A stretch of 64,000 nucleotides of DNA from contig NBOG01000009.1 in the NCBI GenBank assembly GCA_002104535.1, positions 62,001-126,000 of the forward strand. The letters run 5' to 3'. A model generated the notes under the pieces. That model saw only the letters and a list, made by a program, of their open reading frames with translations, was not told the DNA's origin and ran no database searches. The stretch is from Cognaticolwellia sediminilitoris. GTDB lineage: Bacteria > Pseudomonadota > Gammaproteobacteria > Enterobacterales > Alteromonadaceae. Position 1 is the first letter of the stretch. Each line of letters starts with the position of its first letter. A program made the position numbers and the translations under genes. This document shows positions 8,791 through 45,039 of this stretch, piece by piece.

Positions 8791-9288
8791 CTACTGTTCT
8801 GGTAGTACCCAATCAGGTCTAATAAAGTGACAAGTGTAACCATCAGGGAAGCGCTGTAAATAATCTTGATGTTCTACTTCCGCTTGCCAAAATTCACCGA
8901 CAGGTGCCACTTCAGTGACCACTTTATCTGGCCATAAATTTGAAGCATTAACATCTGAAATGGTTTTTTCAACCGTGGATTTTTGTTCGGCATTTGTGTA
9001 ATAAATCGCTGAGCGATATTCACTACCACGATCATTTCCTTGTCTATTCTCTGTAGTAGGGTCATGAATTTGAAAGAAATATTCTAAGATTTTACGATAC
9101 CCGATCACAGTATTATCGAAGTATATTTCAATCGCTTCAGCATGATTACCGTGGTTTCTGTAAGTAGCATTTGGAGTGTCACCACCAGTATATCCGGCAC
9201 AGGTTTTGGTAACTCCGGGTAATTTACGTATTAAGTCTTGCATGCCCCAAAAGCAGCCGCCAGCTAATACCGCGCGTTCAATAGCCAT
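8791..9288 (-). CDS. msrA: Peptide methionine (S)-S-oxide reductase MsrA
   Basis: A 165-residue cytoplasmic enzyme with the catalytic GGCFWG motif (residues 10-15, Cys12), the [12 protein letters not shown] and [10 protein letters not shown] segments, and GYTCHFI near the C-terminus that supplies a second Cys. It reduces the S epimer of methionine sulfoxide in proteins, with thioredoxin as reductant. Length fits the short MsrA class. Its start lies 3 bp after the msrB stop, so the two are clearly co-transcribed and cover both sulfoxide epimers. Confidence 0.96.
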
Positions 9289-9291
9289 TTT

Positions 9292-9735
9292 TTAACCCTC
9301 AACTTGTGGCAAATAAGCTTGATAACCTTCAGCAGCCATTTGTTCACGAGGTATGAACCTTAGCGAAGCCGAGTTAATGCAATAACGTAATCCGCCTTGC
9401 TCAACTGGACCATCGTTAAAAACATGACCTAAGTGACTATCACCATGCTTAGAACGTACTTCTGTGCGAACCATGCCGTGGGTATCATCAGTTACTTCAT
9501 TAATATGAGTCGGCTCTATGGGCTTACTAAAGCTTGGCCAACCACAACCGGCGTCAAACTTATCGGCTGAAGCAAACAAAGGTTCGCCAGAAACCACATC
9601 AACATAGATACCCGGTGCGCTATTTTCTAGTAACTCACCTGTCCATGGCCGTTCAGTGCCGCTTTCTTGTGTCACGCGATACTGTTCAGCGGATAGTGCA
9701 GCGATAGCATCGCTTGATTTTTTATATTTTGACAT
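9292..9735 (-). CDS. msrB: Peptide methionine (R)-S-oxide reductase MsrB, zinc-free type
   Basis: A 147-residue enzyme counted from the ATG at 9733-9735, which has GAGAGGG just upstream; an in-frame ATG six codons earlier lacks this. It has GCGWPSF (Cys64) and the catalytic [13 protein letters not shown] (Cys119). The two CxxC pairs that hold structural zinc in many MsrB proteins are absent: the sites read [13 protein letters not shown] and [12 protein letters not shown], as in the MsrB domain of Neisseria PilB. It reduces the R epimer of methionine sulfoxide and forms an operon with msrA, 3 bp apart. Confidence 0.95.
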
Positions 9736-9753
9736 AAGCCCTCTCAGTAGCAT

Positions 9754-10090: not shown

Positions 10091-10178
10091 AAAAAAACCG
10101 ATGACAAAAGGGGTCATCGGCATAATTAGCTAGGGGAAGCTATAATTCAAATTCATACAACAGGTGTTCTATGAGAAC
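10091..10178 (-). ncRNA. Predicted ~88-nt independent small RNA
   Basis: Read on the minus strand, a promoter (see next entry) is followed seven bases later by a G at 10178, the likely first base. The predicted transcript opens with a hairpin GTTCT-CAT-AGAAC. It continues through an AU-rich stretch to a second hairpin TAGCT-TCCCCT-AGCTA with a C-rich loop (10127-10142), and ends in a strong terminator: CCGATGAC/GTCATCGG stem, loop CCCTTTT, then seven T. No open reading frame of note lies on this strand between promoter and terminator. Terminator plus promoter at sRNA-like distance and a C-rich exposed loop resemble base-pairing regulators. I do not recognise it as a named RNA family. Confidence 0.6.
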
Positions 10179-10184
10179 GAAAGG

Positions 10185-10212
10185 ATTATAGAGTATAAAC
10201 TCTATAAGTAAA
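10185..10212 (-). promoter_or_regulatory. Sigma-70 promoter of the predicted small RNA, overlapping a palindrome
   Basis: On the minus strand, -35 TTTACT (10212-10207), a 16-bp spacer and a perfect -10 TATAAT (10190-10185). A 9-bp inverted repeat TTATAGAGT-4-ACTCTATAA (10186-10207) covers the spacer and most of the -10, placed where a repressor could block RNA polymerase. The nearest minus-strand gene downstream, msrB, lies more than 300 bp beyond a terminator, so the promoter is not simply the msrB promoter. Confidence 0.55.
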
Positions 10213-10375
10213 GCTTTTGTTCTAGAAATATTGTAAAGTTAATTGTTGGCTTTGATTGTGGTTTGTGGAAGTGTCATAAATAATGAGAACCTCATCAAAG
10301 AATGACAATGGCCGATAAAAATTTATCGAACCTACCATAATAATTTTAGATTTTATCCTGATAGAGTAAAACCAC

Positions 10376-10993
10376 ATGATTGATATTTTAGCTGTTTTTA
10401 TCACATTTTTTGCCGTTATTGACCCGATAGGCACTATACCGGTGTTTATAGCGGTAACCGATCAATATGACCAAAAAACCAAGCGTCGTGTTGCTTTGTT
10501 GGCAACATTTGTCTCTGCATGTGTGTTGTTATTCTTTTTAGTGGTTGGTGAGATAGTATTAACGGCTTTATCTATTCCATTGTCAGCATTTCAAATATCT
10601 GGCGGGATAGTGCTGTTTTTATTCGCGCTAAATATGATTTTTGGCGACAGTAAACCAGATGAAGAAATAAAATTACTGAAAGGCTCTCATAAAGAAACCG
10701 CGATATTTCCTCTGGCAGTGCCTTCAATTGCAAGCCCTGGGGCAATGCTTGCAGCCGTGCTGCTAACTAAAAATTCGGTATATTCACTTTGGGAACAACT
10801 GCAAACGGCTTTAGTGATGCTTTCTGTTCTGGTTTTGGCTTACATATTAATGCTACTTGCGGGTTTTATAAATCGTCTTGTTGGGAGTAGCGGTGCCAGC
10901 GTTATCAGTCGAGTGATGGGGTTAATACTTTCATCTATTGCCACCACAAATATTTTAACTGGCCTTAGTGATTATTATAAATTAATGCATTAG
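10376..10993 (+). CDS. MarC/YhgN-family inner membrane protein
   Basis: A 205-residue protein with about six membrane segments and the UPF0056 signature: FFAVIDPIGTIPVFIAVT near the N-terminus and PLAVPSIASPGAML near residue 115-130. MarC-type proteins were once linked to multiple antibiotic resistance, but a transport function has not been shown. The second and fifth segments carry the conserved Asp-Pro and Pro-rich loops. Stand-alone gene; its upstream region also contains the divergent small-RNA promoter about 160 bp away. Confidence 0.88.
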   Translation: MIDILAVFITFFAVIDPIGTIPVFIAVTDQYDQKTKRRVALLATFVSACVLLFFLVVGEIVLTALSIPLSAFQISGGIVLFLFALNMIFGDSKPDEEIKLLKGSHKETAIFPLAVPSIASPGAMLAAVLLTKNSVYSLWEQLQTALVMLSVLVLAYILMLLAGFINRLVGSSGASVISRVMGLILSSIATTNILTGLSDYYKLMH

Positions 10994-44341: not shown

Positions 44342-44370
44342 AAAAAGCCTGCTAAATAGCAGGCTTTTTT
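44342..44370. terminator. Bidirectional terminator
   Basis: Perfect 12-bp stem AAAAAGCCTGCT/AGCAGGCTTTTT with AAAT loop between the convergent stops of the CJM1_0395-type gene and pyrE. Confidence 0.9.
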
Positions 44371-44397
44371 GATTTCACATGCAAGATTATTTAAAGC

Positions 44398-45039
44398 TTA
44401 GATACCGAAATCTTCACGGTATTTTTTAATACTAGCTAAACTATCAGCCATATCAGGTTTTTCTTCTAAATAACTAATCAAATCAGCTAAAGTCACAATC
44501 GAGATAACTTTTGTATCGAAGTCACGCTCTACTTCTTGAATCGCTGAGAGTTGAGCTTGACCTCTTTCTTGTCTATCTAATGCGATAAGCACGCCTGACA
44601 ATTGTGCGCCATGGGCCTTAATAATTTCCATTGATTCACGAATTGCAGTACCGGCTGTGATCACATCATCAACCAGCATCACTTTACCTTCGAGTGCTGA
44701 ACCCACTAAGCTGCCACCTTCCCCGTGTTTTTTGGCTTCTTTGCGATTGAAGCAATATGGCATATCAATGTTATAAGTGTCAGACAATGCTACGGCGGTA
44801 GTGGTAGCAATTGGAATACCTTTGTAAGCAGGACCAAACAACAAATCAAATTCAATTTTTGAGTCTTGCAGTGCTGCAGCGTAATAGCGGCCTAGACGAG
44901 CTAAGTCACCACCGGTATTAAATAAACCGGCATTAAAAAAATAAGGACTTGTTCTGCCTGACTTTAAAGTGAATTCACCAAAGCGTAGGACTTGTTTCGA
45001 TAAAGCAAATTCGATAAATTCGCGTTGATAATCTTTCAT
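44398..45039 (-). CDS. pyrE: Orotate phosphoribosyltransferase
   Basis: A 213-residue enzyme from the ATG 45037-45039, which has AAGGA seven bases upstream and gives the exact E. coli PyrE length; a TTG two codons earlier is unlikely. [18 protein letters not shown] and the PRPP motif [18 protein letters not shown] (about 118-135) are diagnostic. It converts orotate and PRPP to OMP in pyrimidine synthesis. Lies 19 bp downstream of rph on the same strand, the standard rph-pyrE pair. Confidence 0.98.

Follow-up and report, generated by a model that had tools for sequence, protein, structure and literature searches.

A two-copy small RNA family of Colwelliaceae-type bacteria, one copy of which may have taken the place of Spot 42 behind a HexR-type promoter box

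Spot 42 is the textbook carbon-responsive small RNA (sRNA) of bacteria. A pair of sibling sRNAs of Neisseria, NgncR_162/163, is reportedly tied to main metabolic pathways; the RNAs described here are likened to it by title alone, as a pair of siblings, and differ from it in belonging to another class of bacteria. According to the accessible part of the source, the Spot 42 gene (spf) sits between polA and engB (yihA) in Aliivibrio and E. coli (PMC3295665). A further sRNA of about 60 nt, VSsrna24, lies downstream of spf; in the accessible text of the papers concerned it is described as limited to Vibrionaceae (PMC3295665, PMC13250501) and as upregulated under AKI conditions (PMC13250501). In the literature on sRNAs and Hfq of Colwellia, or on Spot 42 in Alteromonadales, Pseudoalteromonas and Shewanella, within which subscription papers were little covered, we found no report of an RNA like the present one. 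The accessible text of a paper on Spot 42 and Pseudoalteromonas (PMC11882849) contains nothing on such an RNA, and that of PMC5471319 does not mention Spot 42.

The locus lies on the minus strand of a 64,000-nt stretch of DNA of Cognaticolwellia sediminilitoris (the window). A near-consensus promoter (10185-10212), recognized by a scan and by upstream alignments of relatives, consists of TTTACT (−35, 10212-10207) and TATAAT (−10, 10190-10185) separated by 16 bp, and is followed by a candidate sRNA of 88 nt (10091-10178, predicted +1 at 10178), which we call copy B. The RNA is predicted to contain (i) a 5′ hairpin, GUUCU-CAU-AGAAC (10166-10178), defined by covariation in alignment A5 (see below), (ii) an unpaired stretch (10143-10165) with a conserved CCUGUUGUA, the candidate seed, taken from alignment A4, (iii) a middle hairpin, UAGCU-UCCCCU-AGCUA (10127-10142), found by fold prediction, and (iv) an intrinsic terminator with a 9-bp stem and seven U (10091-10121), found by a terminator scan and covariation. 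A palindrome with 9-bp arms, TTATAGAGT-TTAT-ACTCTATAA, covers the spacer and the −10 hexamer. Two operator sites are placed on the same strand: O2 (TAGAGTTTATACTCTA, 10189-10204), which agrees with TARAGTnnnnACTYTA at 16 of 16 positions, and a degenerate O1 (TAGAACAAAAGCTTTA, 10209-10224; 14 of 16). The promoter, the palindrome overlapping it, the UCCCCU loop and the seven-U terminator are all present as described in an original prediction made from the window alone. The outline proposed there, an RNA of about 88 nt with three hairpins, also stands; the 5′ hairpin that evolution keeps is the short GUUCU-CAU-AGAAC stem and not the longer one of our single-sequence fold.

The neighbouring genes, given for context and lying outside the sRNA gene, are msrA and msrB downstream (8791-9753, minus strand; TIGR00401, TIGR00357) and a divergent gene for a MarC/NAAT-type transporter (10376-10993, plus strand; TIGR00427). 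Among the genes listed for the window, none runs into the sRNA terminator save a 70-aa frame (10222-10434), which we take to be spurious. An encoded peptide (MNLNYSFP, from a short ATG frame of the window copy) was rejected, the ATG being missing from the other 24 rows of the alignment. The sequence just past the terminator, TTTTTTTATGCCTAAA (window 10097-10078), recurs after T runs elsewhere in related genomes, as exact matches of 20-22 nt; no second occurrence was found within the 64-kb window.

Promoter and terminator scans alone came out near chance: the surrounding 5 kb contains 18 promoter-like sites (15.6 expected) and five terminator-like sites (3.5 expected), so the case for an sRNA gene rests on comparison. 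The predicted fold of positions 10179-10090 (90 nt) has an energy of −25.2 kcal/mol versus −10.1 (sd 2.6) for shuffled sequences (z −5.8), and none of 200 shuffles was as stable. A DNA search at E≤0.01 gave matches in 26 of 60 relatives, several of the more distant of which span only 20-31 nt at the terminator; every one of the 16 other genomes of the genus was among those matched, at 79-85% identity. The covariance-model search among relatives that the original prediction had proposed was performed with a model (R1) built from an alignment (A4) of 25 oriented loci. The window copy scored 94.7 bits, and at E≤0.01 R1 matched 45 of the 118 genomes of the family (20 of 52 genera), some of these matches being expected, since the genomes in question supplied sequences to the model. 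At least two matches were present in 34 of the 45, and the weakest genomes, G084 and G092, reached about 36 bits. Weak further matches in the window's own genome lie at window positions 44349-44426 (plus strand, 22-25 bits) and at G000:C20:282706-282765 (34 bits).

Scanning of named genome contigs for the core pattern yielded 55 stretches, mainly from Colwellia, Cognaticolwellia, Thalassotalea, Thalassomonas (these four belonging to the NCBI family Colwelliaceae) and unclassified Alteromonadaceae; two labels among the matches, Endozoicomonas sp. G2_1 and a Cytophagaceae MAG, appear to be wrong assignments. Throughout the order, the pattern TAGAGN{40,70}TGTTGN{5,35}TAGCTYYYCC occurred in 15 of 295 genomes; judged by eye, the matches in genomes of the window's own family (except G105) and in G054 look real, and those in G105, G288, G231, G217, G202 and G051 look like chance.

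Alignment A5 (52 rows) was fitted to the model and is thus biased toward it; 93.1% of its cells are paired, changes on both sides occur in nine of 19 pairs, and its covariation score is 0.245 versus 0.120 for shuffled alignments, none of 500 of which scored as high. Support is strong for the terminator (98.6% paired, changes on both sides in six of nine pairs) and moderate for the 5′ hairpin (78.4% of cells paired, three of five pairs); the middle stem is nearly invariant, and covariation therefore speaks neither for nor against it. The motif UGUUGUA is invariant in all 25 rows of A4; in the alignments as a whole UGUUGU does not vary, and AGCU hardly does. Conservation and covariation raise the sRNA above chance and back the earlier proposal of an independent sRNA gene. 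Judged by comparison, the minus strand of 10212-10091 is a genuine sRNA gene, ordinary in kind, with a history and control that appear unusual.

A search of the window against Rfam 15 returned no family at the gathering score, and a permissive search of four loci gave sub-threshold matches only: SdsR_RyeB (RF00111), on a homologue (L030), with 22.4 of 38 bits, and Qrr (RF00378), on the window copy, with 21.9 of 50 bits. Membership of a known RNA family was ruled out on these grounds. As an overall interpretation, the original prediction is supported in part, namely in its sRNA gene with an operator at the promoter and, as far as Rfam goes, in its statement that the RNA is not a known one. A cobalamin riboswitch (L021:487-597, minus strand; 54.9 bits versus a cut-off of 31.5) was noted near an sRNA copy in a different genus.

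The window's genome contains a second copy (copy A) outside the window, downstream of polA (L031:17681-17767; 62.9 bits with R1); polA and this copy are separated by a small cupin-like frame (L031:17214-17519). In the loci examined, copies adjoin the end of polA, the start of engB or, in the window's genus, msrB; in some loci none of the tested neighbours is present within 1.5 kb. The gap between polA and engB is the spf locus. It holds copy A, which has its own terminator and a size similar to that of Spot 42 but another sequence and fold, and it also holds the Spot 42-adjacent homologues described below; the window copy lies beside msrB. The two copies are 70-74% identical to each other in G000, G010, G013, G015 and G027. 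In G017 and G152 they lie close together and are 98-100% identical, a pattern suggestive of gene conversion between closely placed copies. In one locus (L083) the order is polA - copy - copy - engB, and both RNAs are identical over 91 nt.

We compared the upstream regions of 32 Spot 42 genes, 18 polA-side copies and 26 B copies (engB- or msrB-side); the polA-side set, which was compiled manually, contains one locus (L049) whose single polA-engB copy has O1 and is without the box considered here. This box, defined as a match of at least 13 of 15 to TGTARTWWWAYTACA, the consensus of HexR, is present in 25 of the 32 Spot 42 promoters, always at −56 to −60. It was also found in 15 of the 18 polA-side copies, including 11 with the box at −58 to −60, a spacing that agrees with Spot 42, and in none of the 26 B copies, the window copy reaching 11 of 15. 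O1 (TAGAGTAAAnnCTTTA, at least 15 of 16 columns, two of them N) showed another distribution, with 24 of 26 B copies, two of 18 polA-side copies and none of the 32 Spot 42 promoters. For O2 (TARAGTnnnnACTYTA, at least 15 of 16 columns, four of them N) the respective numbers were 24, 14 and none. This conserved two-site element backs the idea of an operator at the sRNA promoter, which could serve an activator or a repressor. The promoter spacer is 18 bp in most relatives and 16 bp in the window copy. In the window's own genome the copy A promoter (L031:17600-17680) is without a HexR-type box (9 of 15) and the O1 of copy B is degraded, so that regulation may be simpler there.

Exact sites of the box number five in G001 (three for the reversed control), six in G021 (control none) and none in G071, an 80% complete genome (control one). 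Eight of the 11 exact sites are located at zwf-hexR (in both genomes), hexR-pykA, gapA/gnd, a glutamate-synthase-type gene (gltB), ppc (two sites) and a glycogen-phosphorylase-type gene (glgP), the adjacent proteins having been checked by profile search; two others are in the spf slot and one is unassigned. In G001 the exact site of the spf slot lies 66 nt after copy A, and a 13 of 15 site is found upstream at the usual place. The presence of the box at zwf-hexR, pykA, gapA, ppc, gltB and glgP suggests that it is bound by HexR. Two papers on HexR regulons (PMC3223726, PMC5343134) do not mention Spot 42 or sRNAs in their accessible parts, and a search of the accessible literature for HexR together with Spot 42 led only to work on Neisseria.

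The same upstream regions could belong to a real sRNA pair that involved no promoter capture, the second copy having arisen on its own beside polA and the box at −59 being either a chance match in AT-rich DNA or the site of another factor such as CRP, which controls Spot 42 in E. coli according to the accessible part of PMC3295665. The box is indeed AT-rich, reaches merely 13-14 of 15 in most polA-side copies and is missing from its usual place in seven of them. However, shuffles made for each of the 15 polA-side copies with at least 13 of 15 equalled the observed match in 0 to 2.5% of cases, the spacing is that of Spot 42 promoters, and the B copies lack the box; we therefore regard an explanation without promoter capture as rather improbable.

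The operator, also given as TTAGAGTAATTACTTTAA, extends beyond the genus, and versions of it turn up in the polA-engB slot of several families. Inside the genus, TARAGTnnnnACTYTA is not strongly enriched (74 sites versus 46 for the reversed control in 13 genomes), and several of the sites inspected fall in coding sequence. Of the 31 genomes of family f21, which we take for Vibrionaceae, 15 have a single exact site of the full form TTARAGTAAnnACTTTAA, and this site always falls in the polA-engB gap (the reversed-pattern control gave one match); the other 16 have no exact match. Where present, it precedes a −10 hexamer and an RNA with the core CTTCTTGTTC, which has little of the R1 core. Where f21 loci are without the operator, the gap mostly contains another RNA, which is CU-rich (8 of 11 loci aligned). 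This short RNA (TCTCTCCC ... CCCCACC hairpin) is kept in the spf-engB gap of L299, L301, L302, L307, L315-L317, L323 and L320, and by its description is probably VSsrna24. The sRNA studied here shares with VSsrna24 the intergenic region downstream of spf; identity of the two was considered and dropped, as the CU-rich RNA, which has another sequence and occurs in operator-less loci, fits the description of VSsrna24 better.

Among 295 genomes of the order, TTAGAGYAAWNACTTYAA gave 50 matches in 42 genomes versus one control match, and in this exact form is absent from the window's own genome. Thirty of these loci were fetched: polA, engB or both are found within 1.5 kb of 15, eight are flanked by DUF2835-type and DUF1302-type genes (DUF1302 confirmed in three, DUF2835 in one, the others assigned by eye), one is at a FadL-type gene, one is upstream of hisG, and five are elsewhere. 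In five of the slot loci (L362, L363, L365-L367) the R1 core TCTTGTTGAA...TTTAGCTTCTCCCC stands behind the operator. The operator between the DUF2835 and DUF1302 genes, TTAGAGYAAWTACTTYAA, was found in three families (L353, L354, L356, L357, L359, L361, L368, L369). The site overlaps the end or stop codon of the DUF2835 gene, and is read there in two different frames, an argument for its conservation as DNA and not as coding sequence; a literature search for a regulon of DUF1302 and FadL found nothing. Four loci (L141, L142, L154, L343) have a related palindrome, TARAGTnnnnACTTTA, in the intergenic DNA that precedes hisG, and in two genomes (L131, L158) a related palindrome adjoins a TTAGCAAGCTAA repeat upstream of the gene of a MarR-family regulator.

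In sequence and conservation the RNA resembles the Hfq-class trans-acting sRNAs: it has a free-standing gene with its own promoter and a U-tract terminator, and a conserved unpaired UGUUGUA that would suit a seed. A trans-acting sRNA, probably of the Hfq type, is the best reading, with UGUUGU as its putative seed. Since C-rich loops recur across the sRNA family, it is also plausible that the CCCC loop targets ribosome binding sites. The complement of the candidate seed, TACAACAGG, has 43 other sites in the window's genome (G000) and 33 in G009, and a search by script and by eye revealed no gene with such a site close to its start in both genomes. Only in G000 does it precede an AceE-like frame (by 89 nt) and a TyrR-like frame (by 156 nt), both named by eye. 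Counts of TACAACAGG versus the reversed pattern were 44 versus 15 in G000, 35 versus 23 in G001, 34 versus 15 in G009 and 38 versus 40 in G028. The functions controlled by the sRNA may lie in carbon, lipid or outer-membrane processes.

The presence of two copies in many genomes and the strongly conserved unpaired stretches would also fit an RNA that acts as a protein-binding sponge and not by base pairing. RNAs of the CsrB type, however, carry a run of GGA-type loops; the present sRNA is short, has no such run, and its middle loop is C-rich, and we consider a sponge very unlikely.

In the searches described here, Spot 42 was not found in Colwelliaceae-type genomes. In the window's own genome RF00021 gave no match at E≤1, and the Spot 42 5′ end (GTAGGGTACAGAGG) is absent. 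Within the family, GTAGGGTACAGAGG is present in 45 of 118 genomes and the R1 RNA also in 45, yet they occur together in G084 alone, where about 17 such genomes would be expected under independence; by these searches 29 of the 118 have neither. With RF00021 at E≤0.01, 30 of the 118 genomes were matched, one of them above the cut-off, and four (G084, G117, G125, G146) had both RF00021 and R1 at this level. In the last three, the RF00021 matches score 27-31 bits, are remote from the R1 copies and do not contain the 14-mer; we take them for chance. Many Spot 42 copies of the family are shortened or altered. In several genera (L071-L075, L095-L109) Spot 42 is reduced to about 80-90 nt, with its 5′ end kept and the RF00021 score below the cut-off.

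Directly downstream of an intact Spot 42, an R1-like RNA with its own promoter was found in L070/L088, in L094/L090/L089 (G084 and its relatives) and in L086/L091/L093, and the same arrangement occurs in three other families (L077, L081, L082). These Spot 42-adjacent homologues have the core TGTTG ... TAGCTTCTCCCC (altered in L077). Their scores with model R2 are modest (17-36 bits) and some other R2 matches fall on Spot 42 itself, so the argument for homology leans on the common core, the operator and the place. A strongly diverged Spot 42 orthologue would account for the polA-engB place, the similar length, and the upstream box of copy A with its spacing. It was rejected since, in several genera and families, related RNAs share the gap with Spot 42; the window's genome, moreover, has no RF00021 match, and 44 of the 45 R1 genomes lack GTAGGGTACAGAGG. 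We hold such an orthologue to be highly improbable; the best reading of the sRNA is that of a separate gene neighbouring Spot 42.

Two further explanations have next to no probability. A leader or attenuator of msrBA would fit the position of msrB, which follows the sRNA on its own strand both in the window and at all 16 other loci of the genus, but a strong terminator stands about 340 nt before msrB, and in the other genera examined the RNA is found beside polA or engB without msrB. An untranscribed relic or chance arrangement would agree with the near-chance scans and with the degraded O1 and 16-bp spacer of the window's genome, but is opposed by the conservation and covariation of the sRNA and by the paired stems, core and terminator that the window copy retains.

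We consider it likely, taking the comparisons as a whole, that the window locus is copy B of a two-copy family of trans-acting sRNAs in Colwelliaceae-type bacteria that have lost Spot 42 and in which copy A came to lie behind a HexR-type box. The order of events that we infer begins with a polA-engB gap in which Spot 42 was immediately followed by a separate sRNA that had a promoter of its own and an operator of the TARAGTA-nn-TACTYTA type. In the Colwelliaceae-type lineage Spot 42 would then have been lost, and copy A, beside polA, would have ended up downstream of the HexR-type box that belonged to the promoter region of Spot 42. The original operator would have stayed with copy B, which in the window's genus lies beside msrB. 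The product of each copy would be about 88 nt long, with an intrinsic terminator at its end. It most likely acts in trans, probably with Hfq, and would pair by way of the conserved CYUGUUGUA stretch, the C-rich loop or both; for the loop, ribosome binding sites of the GGGGAA or GAGGA type are possible partners. The loops of the copies differ in the window's genus, being of the UUUCCUC or CUCCUC type in copy A and UUCCCC in copy B. Copy B would be switched by a regulator at O1 and O2, and copy A would answer to HexR where the box is kept.

To the more specific proposition, that the sRNA took over the place of Spot 42 behind a HexR-controlled region, with siblings answering to HexR (sugar, KDPG) and to the O1/O2 regulator, respectively, we assign an even chance. 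That evenly balanced judgement also covers, jointly with the takeover, an O1/O2 regulator with a small, old set of operators that includes genes for DUF1302 and FadL-type outer-membrane proteins, a set that perhaps points to lipid uptake.

If correct, this would be a clear case of promoter capture in the evolution of sRNAs, in which Spot 42 was lost and an adjacent, unrelated RNA occupies its slot with the upstream control box retained. Spot 42 itself may likewise be under HexR control across the wider family, as the box at −59 predicts. The operator that occurs once per genome, always in the polA-engB gap, in 15 of the 31 f21 genomes would provide a handle on its regulator.
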